Positions 7,453-55,732 of a stretch of 64,000 nucleotides of DNA are shown here, one piece after another (positions within the stretch are counted from its first letter, which is position 1; every line of letters starts with the position of its first letter). A program made the translations under genes and the position numbers. Under the pieces are notes generated by a model that worked only from the letters and a program-made list of their open reading frames with translations, had not been told where the DNA came from and made no database searches. This DNA is from Labilibaculum antarcticum (lineage in GTDB: Bacteria > Bacteroidota > Bacteroidia > Bacteroidales > Marinifilaceae). The stretch spans positions 5,116,361 to 5,180,360 of the forward strand of contig NZ_AP018042.1 of assembly GCF_002356295.1 (NCBI RefSeq), given 5' to 3'.

Positions 7453-8796
7453 ATGAAATATCATCTTGTATCATTGGGATGTCAAATGAACGCTTCGGAT
7501 GGAGAAAGAGTTCGTTCGGTAATTGAGAATATGGGTTATCGGTGGACTGATAATGAAGAAGAAGCAAATTTAATAGGAATTTTGGCTTGTTCTGTCCGCC
7601 AAAAAGCCATCGACAAAGTATACTCCAAAATTCATAAATGGAATCAATGGAAAGATAAACGTAACCTAATCACATTTGTTTCTGGTTGTATATTACCTTC
7701 CGATTTTGATAAATTTCTCAAATTATTTGATGTGATTTTTCAAATGAAAGATCTACCTAAATTACCTGAAATGATTCAGCAGTATGGGATTACAACTCCT
7801 GTTGGTTTGCAACAAGGCTTTGATTCTCAGAACGAAAACATTTCAGAATTTTGGAATGTTAAACCTCACTATACTTCAGATTTTGAGGCTTTTGTGCCTA
7901 TTCAAAATGGTTGTGATAAGTTTTGTTCGTTCTGTGCGGTACCCTATACCCGAGGTCGTGAAGTTTCTCGGCCCTCAATCGAAATTGTTGACGAAGTTAA
8001 AAGTTTGGTAGAAAAAGGATATAAGTCTATCACTTTGCTTGGACAAAATGTTAATTCGTATGGTCTGGATAAAAAAGGCGATGAAATTGATTTTCCAGAA
8101 TTACTCCGTAAAGTTGGAGAATTAGGAAATGAATTGAAAAAGGAATTTTGGGTTTATTTTACCTCTCCCCATCCGCGCGATATGACTGACAAAGTTATCG
8201 AAGTAATTGCTCAATATAAACATTTAGCAAAGCAAATTCACTTGCCTGTTCAATCTGGGGATGATAAGGTACTTATCCACATGAATCGCAAGCATGGAAT
8301 GGAGAAATACCGTCAAATTGTTCACACTATTAAAAGGTTAATTCCGGAGGCTACCCTCTTTACAGATATCATTGTTGGTTTTACCGGTGAGAGTGATGAG
8401 CAGTTTGAAAATACCCGAAAAGCAATGGAGGAATTCAAATACAATATGGCTTATATTGCTGTTTATTCTCCGCGGCCAGGTGCCTTAAGTCATCGTTGGT
8501 TCGACGATGTAAGTCTGGATATTAAGAAAGAAAGACATCATATTTTAACGAAGGATTTAAAAATTCATTCGAAAAATTACAATATGACCATGGTGGGTAA
8601 AACTTTTCGATTATTGGTGAAAGGCAAGGCGAAGCATGATGGTTACCTTGCCGGATTAACGGAAGGAAGAATTAACGTTCGGTTTTTATCTCAGGATGAG
8701 AGTCTAATTGGAGAATTTGTGGATATTAAAATTACATCGACAGCTGATTTTTCAGTTGAAGGTGAACTGGTAATAATAAAAGAAAGTGTAGCGTGA
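7453..8796 (+). CDS. miaB: MiaB-family tRNA methylthiotransferase
   Basis: This 447-residue radical-SAM methylthiotransferase has an N-terminal UPF0004 domain whose three cluster cysteines sit in SLGCQMNASD, LACSVRQ and SGCILP; a radical-SAM core with CDKFCSFCAVPYTRG (CxxxCxxC) and LLGQNVNSYG; and a C-terminal TRAM-like region from about residue 380. The expected reaction is 2-methylthiolation of i6A37 in tRNA. The QMNxxD signature favours MiaB, but the N-terminal domain is divergent (NASDGERV rather than the usual NxxDSE), so it could be a MiaB paralogue. It overlaps mtaB by 4 bp. Confidence 0.78.
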   Translation: MKYHLVSLGCQMNASDGERVRSVIENMGYRWTDNEEEANLIGILACSVRQKAIDKVYSKIHKWNQWKDKRNLITFVSGCILPSDFDKFLKLFDVIFQMKDLPKLPEMIQQYGITTPVGLQQGFDSQNENISEFWNVKPHYTSDFEAFVPIQNGCDKFCSFCAVPYTRGREVSRPSIEIVDEVKSLVEKGYKSITLLGQNVNSYGLDKKGDEIDFPELLRKVGELGNELKKEFWVYFTSPHPRDMTDKVIEVIAQYKHLAKQIHLPVQSGDDKVLIHMNRKHGMEKYRQIVHTIKRLIPEATLFTDIIVGFTGESDEQFENTRKAMEEFKYNMAYIAVYSPRPGALSHRWFDDVSLDIKKERHHILTKDLKIHSKNYNMTMVGKTFRLLVKGKAKHDGYLAGLTEGRINVRFLSQDESLIGEFVDIKITSTADFSVEGELVIIKESVA

Positions 8797-52920: not shown

Positions 52921-54120
52921 TTATTCCTGATTTATGGTGTAATAAATCTTCAAAGAATTGGCTAAAATATTAGTAAATCCTTTTGCATCATCTGCTGTCC
53001 ATCCCTTACTGCTTTCGCCATACTGACCAAATAAATCAGTCATTAAGTCGTTTGGTGAAGTAATACCTTCAACAAAGAAATGCTTTGGATTTAAATTTAA
53101 AATAACTGTTCCAGTTACCTTCTTTTGAGTGTCAAGAAGGAAAGTCTCCATATTTCTCATTACCGGCTCTAAATACTGAGCTTCGTGCAACAACATTCCA
53201 TAGAAATTGGCAATTTGCTCTTTCCAATGCATTTGCCATTTGGTAAGGGTGTGCTTTTCCAGAGTTTGATGAGCTTTAATAATCATTAAAGGTGCAGCAG
53301 CTTCGAACGCAACCCTTCCTTTTGTTCCAATAATTGTGTCACCAATGTGCATGTCTCGTCCAATACCAAACTGAGACCCAATTGCTTCAATTTTTTTAAT
53401 TGCGTCAAGTGGATGCTGTGTTTTTTCTCCATTTACACTAACCAATTCTCCTTTTTCAAAACCAATTGTTAGTTTCTCCGATTCTGTTTTCACAACCTGC
53501 TTTGGATAAGCTTCTTCGGGTAGTGGTTGATCTGATGTTAATGTTTCTTTACCTCCGATACTAGTTCCCCATATTCCTGCATTAATGGAATATTTCATTT
53601 TTTCAAAATTGGCTGAAATACCATTTTCTTTCAAGTAATTGATCTCCGTTTCCCTGCTCAACTCCATATCTCTTGTTGGAGTAATAATTTCAGCATTTGG
53701 AGCCATTATTTTAAAAATTAAATCAAACCGAATCTGATCATTACCTGCACCGGTACTACCGTGTGCAATATAATCAGCACCAATGGAATGGGCATATTTA
53801 GCAATTGCCATGGCTTGAAATGCTCTTTCTGAGCTTACTGATAACGGATAAGTATTGTTCTTTAGAACATTTCCCATTATCATGTATTTAATGCATTTCT
53901 CGTAATATTCTTCGGTAATGTCCAGAGATGCATGTTGAACAACTCCCAGTTGCTTCGTTCTATTTTCTATATCGGCCAATTCTTCATCACTGAAACCACC
54001 TGTATTACCCAATACTGTGTACACATCCATGTTTAACTCCTTAGACAAATAAAGTGCACAGTATGTTGTATCTAAACCTCCGCTATATGCTAATACTACT
54101 TTTTTCTTAGTTGATGTCAT
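52921..54120 (-). CDS. argG: Argininosuccinate synthase
   Basis: This 399-residue enzyme joins citrulline and aspartate using ATP. The PP-loop VVLAYSGGLDTTYCALYL opens the protein; HGSTGAGNDQIRFDL and the SINAGIWGTSIGG segment follow. It is the second gene of the operon, 70 nt after the GNAT gene. Confidence 0.96.
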   Translation of the reverse strand: MTSTKKKVVLAYSGGLDTTYCALYLSKELNMDVYTVLGNTGGFSDEELADIENRTKQLGVVQHASLDITEEYYEKCIKYMIMGNVLKNNTYPLSVSSERAFQAMAIAKYAHSIGADYIAHGSTGAGNDQIRFDLIFKIMAPNAEIITPTRDMELSRETEINYLKENGISANFEKMKYSINAGIWGTSIGGKETLTSDQPLPEEAYPKQVVKTESEKLTIGFEKGELVSVNGEKTQHPLDAIKKIEAIGSQFGIGRDMHIGDTIIGTKGRVAFEAAAPLMIIKAHQTLEKHTLTKWQMHWKEQIANFYGMLLHEAQYLEPVMRNMETFLLDTQKKVTGTVILNLNPKHFFVEGITSPNDLMTDLFGQYGESSKGWTADDAKGFTNILANSLKIYYTINQE

Positions 54121-54190: not shown

Positions 54191-54760
54191 TTATTTTTTA
54201 TCCTTTTTATTGGGATCATAGAGCATACCTGTACACAAACACATTTTTTGATTGGTTCGCTGCAGTATGTCGTAATTCACACAACCGCTGCATCCTTTCC
54301 AAAATGTATCATCAGTAGTTAGCTCCGAAAAGGTAACTGGTCTATATCCTAATTCTGAATTGATTTTCATTACAGGAAGACTTGTGGTGAGTCCGAATAT
54401 TTTGGCCTCAGGGTAACGTTTACGGGATAGTTCGAAAGCCTTAGCCTTAATCATCTTAGCTAAACCTATAGCTCTGTAATTCGGATCTACAATTAGCCCC
54501 GAATTAGCTACATACTTTCCATGCTCCCAGGTTTCTATATAACAAAAACCAATAACTTTATCCTGATCAAAGGCAATGATTGCCTTTCCTTCCTGAATTT
54601 TTTGTACAATGTACAAAGCTTCTCTTTTAGCAATTCCGGTACCGCGAATTTTCGCAGCACTTTCAATCATATCACAAATTTCCTGGGCATATTCGTAATG
54701 CCTCAAACCTGCAGAAATGACACTTATTTTTTGCTCAATTTCCATTGATGTATCTATCAT
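54191..54760 (-). CDS. GNAT acyltransferase at the head of the arginine operon (candidate N-acylglutamate synthase)
   Basis: This 189-residue GNAT protein carries the acyl-CoA loop in LIVDPNYRAIGLAKMIKAKAF and later strands with IFGLTTSLPVMKINSELGYRPV. A C-terminal patch has four cysteines (GCSGCVNYDILQRTNQKMCLC), unusual for the fold and possibly a metal site. The operon otherwise lacks argA and argJ, and this gene comes first, directly behind the attenuator array. It is therefore the natural candidate for the first step, N-acetyl- or N-succinyl-glutamate synthesis. Related GNAT genes precede argG in other Bacteroidota. Function is inferred from position. Confidence 0.72.
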   Translation of the reverse strand: MIDTSMEIEQKISVISAGLRHYEYAQEICDMIESAAKIRGTGIAKREALYIVQKIQEGKAIIAFDQDKVIGFCYIETWEHGKYVANSGLIVDPNYRAIGLAKMIKAKAFELSRKRYPEAKIFGLTTSLPVMKINSELGYRPVTFSELTTDDTFWKGCSGCVNYDILQRTNQKMCLCTGMLYDPNKKDKK

Positions 54761-54776
54761 TTTATTCTAGCTATTA

Positions 54777-54917
54777 CTAAATTTCCCAAAAAAGTGCTAC
54801 GGCAGTTAAGCACAACCACCTATTATTTAATTCTACAAAAAAGTCCGCTCTTGCTGTCTGGTTGTTGTTTTCCCGAAAACAGCGTCGTCTAAAGTCTAAG
54901 GAGTTGAAAAAATTCAT
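54777..54917 (-). CDS. Arginine leader peptide 4 (module d)
   Basis: A 46-codon ORF beginning MNFFNSLDFRRRCFRENN. The Arg cluster is AGA CGA CGC TGT TTT CGG (codons 10-15), the same RRRCxR pattern as leader 1. It ends at a TAG 16 nt before the GNAT start codon. Unlike the other three it continues through its terminator-like hairpin (54788-54813), so a translating ribosome would melt that hairpin. Within the cluster, TGTTTT and AAAACA can pair around CGGG. It is the weakest of the four because of its length and the overlap. Confidence 0.6.
   Translation of the reverse strand: MNFFNSLDFRRRCFRENNNQTARADFFVELNNRWLCLTAVALFWEI
54788..54813 (-). terminator. Attenuator terminator d, last before the arginine genes
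   Basis: GTGCT (54794-54798) pairs with AGCAC (54809-54813), extended by AC/GT (54799-54800 with 54805-54806) across a 2-nt bulge. T6 follows on the minus strand. It is weaker than terminators a to c and lies inside leader ORF 4, 28 nt upstream of the GNAT start. Confidence 0.55.
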
Positions 54918-54939
54918 GTTTTTACTTTTTAGTTTATAC

Positions 54940-54972
54940 AAAAAAAGCTTCCCGTCCGAGAACAGTAAGCTT
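54940..54972 (-). terminator. Attenuator terminator c
   Basis: AAGCTT (54945-54950) pairs with AAGCTT (54967-54972); inside, after one mismatch, CTGT/ACGG pairs with one G-U. On the minus strand seven T follow. It starts 7 nt after the leader 3 stop codon. Confidence 0.72.
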
Positions 54973-54978
54973 ATTAAT

Positions 54979-55080
54979 TTATGATATTTCGATTACAGAA
55001 ATAGCAAGCTCATCCGTCCCTCCTGGGTAACAGTTACTACGCAAATGGCGTCGGCTTTCTGTATGGATAATTTGTTTCAT
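54979..55080 (-). CDS. Arginine leader peptide 3 (module c)
   Basis: A 33-codon ORF beginning MKQIIHTESRRHLRSNC. The cluster is AGC CGA CGC CAT TTG CGT AGT (S-R-R-H-L-R-S, codons 9-15), aligning with RRRRLRS of leader 2. The codons fold on themselves (ACGC/GCGT around CATTT). It stops 7 nt before terminator c. An AGCTT inside codons 24-25 could pair with the 5' AAGCT arm of the terminator, as an antiterminator would. Confidence 0.65.
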   Translation of the reverse strand: MKQIIHTESRRHLRSNCYPGGTDELAISVIEIS

Positions 55081-55104
55081 TTAGTTCTGTAATAATAAAA
55101 TTTC

Positions 55105-55140
55105 AAAAAAAAGGCTTACCGGTAAAAACGGTAAGCCTTT
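55105..55140 (-). terminator. Attenuator terminator b
   Basis: An 11-bp perfect stem (55110-55120 with 55130-55140, core GGCTTACC/GGTAAGCC) with a 9-nt loop, and T8 on the minus strand. It starts 16 nt after the leader 2 stop. A strong classical terminator. Confidence 0.93.
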
Positions 55141-55155
55141 AAATATTGTTGTTAA

Positions 55156-55242
55156 TCATTGATTACACGACAATACGACATCAACCGCTTTCCCTAAAGG
55201 AGATCTAAGTCGTCGTCGTCGTATGTTGTGAAATAAAATCAT
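55156..55242 (-). CDS. Arginine leader peptide 2 (module b)
   Basis: A 28-codon ORF beginning MILFHNIRRRRLRSPLGK. Four consecutive CGA Arg codons (8-11) and an AGA (13) make five Arg in six codons. The Arg-codon stretch ATACGAC (55218-55224) is perfectly complementary to GTCGTAT later in the same ORF (55173-55179), a 1:2-type pairing. CCTTTA at codons 15-16 matches TAAAGG at the foot of terminator b, a possible antiterminator. All the parts of a classical attenuator are present. Confidence 0.82.
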   Translation of the reverse strand: MILFHNIRRRRLRSPLGKAVDVVLSCNQ

Positions 55243-55273
55243 TTGTTCTGTTTTATACTATTATTTTGTTTTC

Positions 55274-55301
55274 AAAAAAAAGGCTTTCCGATATGGAAAG
55301 C
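55274..55301 (-). terminator. Attenuator terminator a
   Basis: A 7-bp perfect stem GCTTTCC/GGAAAGC (55283-55289 with 55295-55301), 5-nt loop, then C and T8 on the minus strand. It starts 31 nt after the leader 1 stop codon. Confidence 0.9.
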
Positions 55302-55331
55302 TTGGAAAATAACTACGCCAATGCTTATACC

Positions 55332-55388
55332 TTATCGTTTGGATAATGATCTAATACAACGTCGTCGAATAATTTGTAAATTTCCCAT
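55332..55388 (-). CDS. Arginine leader peptide 1 (module a)
   Basis: An 18-codon ORF, MGNLQIIRRRCIRSLSKR, with five Arg (CGA CGA CGT, AGA, CGA). AGAAGAAG precedes the ATG. It begins about 15 nt downstream of the expected start of transcription from the TATCTTTG promoter box, so it is the first ORF on the arginine mRNA. Terminator a follows. A 72-codon frame overlaps it in another frame but starts upstream of this promoter and shows no family. Confidence 0.8.
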   Translation of the reverse strand: MGNLQIIRRRCIRSLSKR

Positions 55389-55410
55389 GCTTCTTCTGTT
55401 TTGTTGGATA

Positions 55411-55418
55411 CAAAGATA
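55411..55418 (-). promoter_or_regulatory. Promoter -7 element of the arginine operon leader
   Basis: TATCTTTG on the minus strand is an exact TAnnTTTG match. No clear TTG at -33 (only a TTA about 22 nt upstream). No comparable box lies ahead of leaders 2 to 4, so one transcript should pass through all four modules. Confidence 0.6.
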
Positions 55419-55732
55419 ATCGCAAAAAAGAATAATATCCTAATAAAATTGCTTTTTTTTTCGTCACACATCCATTTATAACCTTTGCGGAAGAATTTTA
55501 TGACATTTCGCCAAACCAAGCTATCTGTACCCCCCCCCTCCATCTATTTATTATTTGTTCTTTTATTAAATAAAGGCTCAACTTGAAAACCTAGCAAAAA
55601 TCGGATCTGCCAACCTAAATTACAGCCTGTTATATATTTTTAACAGTTTAAAAACTTGTTTTTGAATAACCATTTATAAATTACCCCGTAAAATTGCATT
55701 AAGTATCAAAAATTAATAGAATTGAAAATATC

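Follow-up and report, generated by a model that had tools for sequence, protein, structure and literature searches.

The minus strand of a 64,000-nt stretch of the Labilibaculum antarcticum genome (contig NZ_AP018042.1; hereafter the window, whose own numbering is used throughout) carries a leader ahead of an arginine operon that begins with a GNAT acetyltransferase gene. We propose that three ribosome-mediated transcription attenuators, all answering to the same signal, lie in series within this leader and stand in for the repressor ArgR, a reading to which we give a probability of roughly 0.8. Comparison across six genera makes serial ribosome-mediated attenuation of the arginine operon well supported. 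A first-pass annotation of the window had proposed four serial attenuators; comparison bears out three modules, each an open reading frame (ORF) with an Arg cluster followed by a terminator, while the fourth ORF has no conserved terminator or fold. Coordinates of all features are collected in Table 1.

Leader ORFs and terminators are conserved in six genera

Of 96 related genomes searched with the GNAT protein, 61 gave a match. All four ORFs were present in the same order in 22 of these (our own genome and 21 others, GNAT identity 71–100%), which fall in six genera around Labilibaculum (g1, g5, g7, g9, g10 and g17) and comprise every GNAT-positive genome of those genera (G054, of g5, gave no GNAT match). 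The TAnnTTTG box, presumably the Bacteroidota -7 box, stands 30–44 nt 5' of the ORF1 start used in 22/22 leader genomes, and a further such box within the leader is absent from 21 of the 22 (locus L018 has one at -227). The first-pass description of four Arg-cluster ORFs behind a single box on the minus strand is confirmed, and the arrangement is conserved in every one of the 22.

The ORFs are rich in arginine (0.28, 0.18 and 0.09 of residues in ORF1, ORF2 and ORF3 of the window, vs a background of 0.032), and the codon CGA makes up 56%, 68% and 40% of their Arg codons, respectively, among distinct versions, three of the ORF2 versions being read from an inner ATG beyond the Arg cluster. In the long ORFs of the window CGA accounts for 20% of Arg codons and AGA leads with 38%. 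ORF1 retains IRRR with frame-preserving indels across 22/22 genomes, and a serine of ORF3 is kept although its codon differs (TCG in g17, AGT in the other genera); these frame-preserving indels and the serine codon switch support translation of the leader ORFs. ORF3 is also conserved past its Arg cluster. Its tail GGTDEL is largely explained as the antiterminator strand described below read as protein; RSNCYP, just before GGTDEL, is conserved and not accounted for by that strand. The median pairwise ratio of nonsynonymous to synonymous substitution (dN/dS, NG86) is 0.47 for ORF1, 0.55 for ORF2, 0.42 for ORF3 and 0.23 for ORF4; some rows of ORF1 and ORF2 were started at an inner ATG, which affects the dN/dS and codon figures and leaves the stems unaffected.

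A MAFFT alignment of the 22 leader regions (15 rows displayed) shows each of the terminators T1, T2 and T3 as a stem followed by a T run. Stem pairing was counted over 19 distinct rows per module, as the share of cells that form standard pairs, and is nearly complete in all three (Table 1). RNAalifold z-scores of the modules against 100 column shuffles were -12.57 for module 1, -10.49 for module 2 and -7.56 for module 3, while the ORF4 module gave -0.06. One terminator scan of the window overlooks T3, though the comparative tests back it. Predicted intrinsic terminators are thereby placed between leader ORFs 1–3 and the structural genes. A detector requiring an ATG-started ORF of 7–60 codons, at least three Arg in six residues and a terminator-like stem starting 20–160 nt after the cluster gave five hits on both strands of the whole window, of which three are modules 1–3, within 450 nt; by this count the three modules are not a chance find.

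Alternative pairings of the terminator 5' arms

Folds with a stalled ribosome were computed with the cluster's second Arg codon in the A site and an assumed ribosome cover of 12 nt; each fold ended at the base before the terminator 3' arm and was compared with 200 dinucleotide shuffles of the upstream sequence per row. Under these conditions the terminator 5' arms of modules 2 and 3 pair with upstream sequence. The antiterminator strand of module 2 (AT2) is paired in 96.8% of cells, with slid controls at or below 67.2% and the strand AAAGCGG invariant, and its stall fold shows a median gain of -8.4 kcal/mol (median z = -2.65; 15/19 rows at or below 0.05). The corresponding strand of module 3 (AT3) is paired in 95.1% of cells over 13 pairs, where 8 further pair types occur and no slid control exceeds 56.7%; its median gain is -8.0 kcal/mol (median z = -2.16; 13/19 rows at or below 0.05). 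For the candidate strand of module 1 (AT1), 84.9% of cells are paired over 19 rows, the best slid control reaching 70.4%. Both AT2 and AT3 lie within their ORFs just past the Arg cluster, and AT1 just after the ORF1 stop. Modules 2 and 3 thus appear, from these folds, to have mutually exclusive antiterminators that a predicted stall at the Arg codons would expose.

Two other accounts of the leader are weakened by these pairings. One treats each module as a small gene or small RNA in its own right, with its own terminator, and not as part of a leader. The low dN/dS of ORF4, which resembles that of a conserved small protein, speaks for it, but there is one promoter box in 22/22 genomes and none internal in 21/22, the order before the operon is fixed, and the antiterminators would be purposeless; we regard this account as scarcely credible. 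The other takes the terminators as real and the Arg-rich ORFs as incidental, a protein or ligand setting the RNA fold. It would accommodate the conservation of ORF3 past its Arg cluster and those ORF3 stops that lie beyond the terminator. Set against this, four separate ORFs retain Arg clusters before an arginine operon, the antiterminator strands follow directly on those clusters, in the same genome the leaders for his, trp and ilv are each rich in their own amino acids, and no Rfam family matched at gathering score anywhere in the window (at E up to 1, positions 54750–55450 gave seven sub-threshold hits, no T-box among them). A protein or ligand switch is therefore judged very improbable.

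Several observations weigh against attenuation by three modules. Two-sided changes amount to at most one cell in any helix counted, terminators and antiterminators alike, so classical covariation, which the first-pass annotation had suggested looking for, is nearly absent; base changes in T1–T3 are nearly all one-sided, of the G-C to G-U kind. One-sided changes would be expected because a 5' arm pairing with two partners would vary little, and on our interpretation the scarcity of two-sided changes fits such an arm, without proving it. AT1 is weak against shuffles (median z = -1.3; 3/19 rows at or below 0.05), and AT3 does no better than shuffles in 5/5 rows of g17 (fractions 0.135–0.72), where most of its pairs are retained all the same. 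As evidence of coding, the dN/dS values of ORF1–ORF3 are modest, because the ORFs are short and constrained by RNA pairing. The ORF3 stop lies beyond T3 in 4/22 genomes (L012, L013, L015 and L017), a position that the simple model would not lead one to expect. Finally, the contrast in ArgR given below ignores phylogeny, and the six related genera may represent one or few evolutionary events.

Proposed mechanism

From the anatomy of the leader, its conservation, the alternative pairings and the absence of ArgR, we infer translation, stalling and termination to proceed as follows. A single transcript from the TAnnTTTG box would run through three leader-peptide attenuators on its way to the GNAT-arg operon, and in each a ribosome trailing RNA polymerase would enter a short ORF with 3–5 Arg codons, mostly CGN. 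When charged tRNA-Arg is scarce, the ribosome would stall on the Arg cluster and leave the antiterminator strand 3' of the cluster free to capture the terminator 5' arm; RNA polymerase would then continue. With plentiful arginine, the ribosome would run over or cover the antiterminator strand, the terminator would fold and transcription would end. The position of the strands past the Arg clusters would therefore give the response its classic sign, readthrough at low charged tRNA-Arg. A full-length mRNA would have to pass all three terminators; with three gates in series, the three leaks would roughly multiply to give the basal readthrough, and the response would be steeper than with one.

The modules may instead be redundant or threshold-shifted gates within the same serial attenuation, not independent multiplying ones. 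The Arg clusters vary in number and codon use from module to module, and the T1 hairpin (median energy -8.6 kcal/mol) is weaker than that of T2 (-14.7 kcal/mol), both of which favor gates of this kind, and nothing direct counts against them; we hold this version possible, if somewhat doubtful.

ORF4 is conserved but the fourth hairpin is not

ORF4 is present in 22/22 genomes, always with 46 codons and its Arg cluster, and has the lowest dN/dS of the four ORFs. Its C-terminus is conserved (NNxWLxLTxVALFWE in nine rows), and a comparison with Pfam and NCBIfam gave no match of note. The first-pass annotation had given each of the four ORFs a hairpin with a U-run. While T1–T3 are conserved, the bases of the fourth (a 5-bp stem and U6) are present in the window and not maintained in relatives: U6 occurs in 9/22 genomes, the GTGCT/AGCAC stem in 8/22 and both in 5/22, these being five of the nine genomes of the window's genus and none outside it. 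Elsewhere the U6 site reads TTTTCT, TTATTTT, CTATTTT or TTATTCT while ORF4 retains ALFW. The comparison with relatives that had been suggested as a check thus favors the ORFs and stems of modules 1–3 and fails for stem 4.

The fourth hairpin is also missing from the list of one terminator scan, and the detector does not link it to ORF4; under lax settings a stem is accepted in the ORF4 module of 9/22 genomes, the window's copy not included. A conserved RNA fold was sought in the ORF4 module and none was found. With joint occurrence in 5/22 genomes and a z-score of -0.06, the hairpin is not a conserved terminator, and a fourth attenuator is not supported. A fourth attenuator that works in the window's genus, if not beyond it, could appeal to the stem and U6 shared by five of nine genomes there and to the Arg cluster kept in all 22, but the same counts and z-score tell against it, and the hairpin sits inside ORF4, whose stop comes after it, so that a translating ribosome would cover it; four serial attenuators are highly unlikely even in this restricted form. 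ORF4 is best described as a conserved upstream ORF; as the simplest guess, it may make translation of GNAT Arg-sensitive or be coupled to it.

Absence of ArgR

ArgR (PF01316) was found in 42/96 genomes; the search detected it in no leader genome (0/22, our own included). Among the other GNAT-positive genomes it was present in 28/38, the weak hit G013 being left out, or in 27/33 when limited to genomes whose upstream DNA was inspected (P-value = 7e-9 or 4e-10, Fisher test, uncorrected for kinship). The triple leader would suggest a way for genomes without ArgR to control amino-acid biosynthesis.

Similar modules at other operons of the genome

Upstream of hisG (L139), one module was seen by eye, with the HHHHH leader MTFTATHHHHHYTYQSVS and a terminator with U7; the trpE region (L175) carries the WWW leader MIGMINKYWWWHSYELSKPEQR and a terminator. 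An ilvD-led operon is preceded by two tandem modules of Ile/Val/Leu-rich ORFs and terminators (L143, reverse complement 7660–8133), both of which are kept in 20/20 clade relatives with an ilvD locus (L148–L167; 21 genomes were asked and G005 gave none). In distant genomes, 5/6 gave an ilvD locus, each with one terminator by an Ile/Val/Leu ORF; two of the five carry two such ORFs, and a distal stem in L169 was set aside. At a thr leader ORF with a TTTTTT run (L174), the detector accepted no terminator. Serial modules therefore recur in the clade, and arginine has the highest number among the operons looked at.

If the proposed mechanism is true, the three modules of arg and the two of ilv would form a natural series relating module number to basal leak and steepness. 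A bolder form, that ArgR was replaced in this clade by four serial arginine gates, namely three multiplying attenuators and a translational ORF4 gate coupled to GNAT, and that serial same-signal attenuation is tunable, the number of modules (one for his, one for trp, two for ilv and three for arg) determining how steep the response to each amino acid is, seems to us unlikely.

An argF-like transcarbamylase gene (L137, L176–L200) has a TAnnTTTG box, a long leader ORF and a terminator CCAACATT..AATTGTTGG with U9. Its stem shows paired changes, with 12 distinct versions in the 17/25 loci that fit a strict pattern. Among the eight loci that do not fit are the four outgroups and the short-flank locus L194. 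The Arg cluster of this leader ORF is unconvincing.

Distribution among relatives and in the phylum

Upstream DNA was covered for 60/61 GNAT-positive genomes (22 + 33 + 5; the weak hit G013 was left out). The array was absent from 33 loci of other relatives (L023–L055, GNAT identity 50–66%), some with short flanks (L027, 192 nt; L051, 990 nt); L050 gave two overlapping detector hits that look like chance. It was likewise absent from five more loci (L202–L206), of which L202 offers only 89 nt upstream, and the scattered Arg-cluster ORFs of L203, L205 and L206, several with GTG or TTG starts, were taken for chance. The first-pass annotation had raised the possibility that module number varies among relatives; it is constant across the 22 leader genomes, and no intermediate numbers were seen (one survey comprised 56 genomes of the family, of which 44 matched GNAT). 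In the loci examined the triple attenuator is seen in the six genera only. An exact pattern of the ORF3 signature was found in 1/395 genomes of the phylum, the window's own, in a draw that held no other leader genome.

Arg-rich upstream ORFs have a wider distribution. In 78 named Bacteroidota loci (L059–L136, among the matches listed, 80 being kept of a larger scan), an ATG-started ORF of 8–45 codons with an Arg cluster lies no more than 500 nt upstream in 35/78 on the sense strand and in 7/78 on the other strand (P-value = 5e-7, Fisher test), and residues other than Arg showed no comparable excess in the same loci. Arg-rich ORFs ahead of this operon thus either predate the clade or have arisen more than once. 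No Arg-ORF excess was seen in L023–L055 (two on the sense strand vs three on the other).

A two-hairpin element was noticed in 23/78 of these loci, about 68–173 nt upstream of the aligned GNAT start (L064, L077, L078, L089, L090, L091, L093, L096, L098–L100, L102, L106, L107, L110, L112, L119, L123, L124, L126, L127, L131 and L133), in genera that we take to be Flavobacteriaceae. It consists of CCC-GUAA-GGG followed by GGAAC..AGGUGAGUCC..GUUCC, and an Arg-rich frame, mostly ending in RRP-stop, runs into it. Two-sided changes occur in 3/9 predicted pairs, and L105, a further locus with the element, matched nothing in Rfam at E up to 1. The element is possibly a new arginine-linked RNA. Homology between this flavobacterial element and the C-terminal region of ORF4 was considered, and a MAFFT alignment gave it no support. 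Separately, L059 and L060 have in common a GC-rich, hairpin-looking stretch about 60–130 nt upstream of GNAT, without an Arg-cluster ORF, which is possibly another leader type.

Comparison with known systems

The enteric trp, his, leu, ilv and thr operons have ribosome-mediated transcription attenuators, and to our knowledge attenuators have mostly been described one per operon. Like the enteric systems, the arginine leader combines a leader ORF rich in regulatory codons, an intrinsic terminator, an alternative antiterminator and a biosynthetic operon downstream; unlike them, it has three modules for one amino acid, concerns arginine in the Bacteroidota, and has antiterminator strands inside ORF2 and ORF3. 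Tandem T-box leaders, such as the triple T-box of Bacillus subtilis thrZ, also place elements sensing charged tRNA in series, but T-boxes bind tRNA directly, whereas here the sensor would be a ribosome on an ORF, and no Rfam T-box match was found. Within the phylum, we take Bacteroid-trp (RF01692) to be an attenuator.

PMC7583486 states that it is unknown how tandem T-boxes act. According to extracts of PMC3641672, the Salmonella mgtCBR leader contains tandem attenuators with two short ORFs sensing ATP and proline; it resembles the arginine leader in having several short ORFs, each tied to an attenuation-like switch, but its two ORFs answer to different signals, whereas the three modules here would sense one. 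For the Bacteroidota, extracts from three papers give hints that leader peptides attenuate amino-acid operons in Flavobacterium psychrophilum (PMC9723704), several small ORFs in the 5' untranslated region of Bacteroides thetaiotaomicron BT_4401 (PMC7366714), and Bacteroid-trp in a list of Bacteroidetes cis-regulatory RNAs (PMC2864571). These are leader-peptide or cis-regulatory candidates from the same phylum, and BT_4401 shares the presence of several ORFs in one 5' region; unlike the present leader, none of them is named, in those extracts, in connection with an arginine operon or with three attenuators for the same signal. The extracts of PMC2965389, PMC8632094 and PMC3997798 describe no multi-module arginine attenuator. 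In the open-access literature we found neither an arginine attenuator of this kind nor a three-fold ribosome-mediated attenuator, an absence that is weak evidence. The first-pass claim of novelty for arginine attenuation in the Bacteroidota needs softening, given that Arg-rich upstream ORFs precede this operon in many other members of the phylum and that the extracts of PMC9723704 hold the hints mentioned.

The arginine operon

The genome consists of one 5.72 Mb contig. The gene order predicted in the first-pass annotation is borne out: the leader is followed by GNAT, argG, argC, argD, argB, an M20 deacylase in the argE position, argH and carA. The argG and argD products score below NCBIfam cut-offs and above those of Pfam, and carB is assigned from a 1104-aa ORF, without a family scan.

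Table 1. Features of the arginine leader and operon (positions in the window).
Feature	Position	Strand	Remarks
TAnnTTTG promoter box	55411..55418	-	TATCTTTG; ahead of the four ORFs
Leader ORF1	55332..55388	-	RRRCIR; MGNLQIIRRRCIRSLSKR; present in 22/22 genomes
Candidate antiterminator strand 1	55318..55326	-	AAGCATTGG; just 3' of ORF1 stop; pairs with 55305-55298 (CCAAGCTT)
Terminator T1	55274..55301	-	U8; 100% of cells paired over 19 rows
Leader ORF2	55156..55242	-	RRRRLR; MILFHNIRRRRLRSPLGKAVDVVLSCNQ; present in 22/22 genomes
Antiterminator strand 2	55185..55191	-	AAAGCGG; within ORF2; pairs with 55131-55125 (CCGTTTT)
Terminator T2	55105..55139	-	U8; 99.5% of cells paired over 19 rows
Leader ORF3	54979..55080	-	SRRHLR; MKQIIHTESRRHLRSNCYPGGTDELAISVIEIS; present in 22/22 genomes
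Antiterminator strand 3	55006..55019	-	GGACGGATGAGCTT; within ORF3; pairs with 54972-54960 (AAGCTTACTGTTC)
Terminator T3	54940..54972	-	U7; 97.9% of cells paired over 19 rows
ORF4	54777..54917	-	RRRCFR; 46 codons with Arg cluster; stops 16 nt before GNAT ATG
Claimed fourth hairpin	54788..54813	-	5-bp stem GTGCT/AGCAC and U6; not a conserved terminator
GNAT acetyltransferase gene	54191..54760	-	first of arginine operon; PF00583 above cut-off
argG	52921..54120	-	ORF list and family scan
argC, argD, argB, M20 deacylase, argH, carA	3' of argG, down to 46411	-

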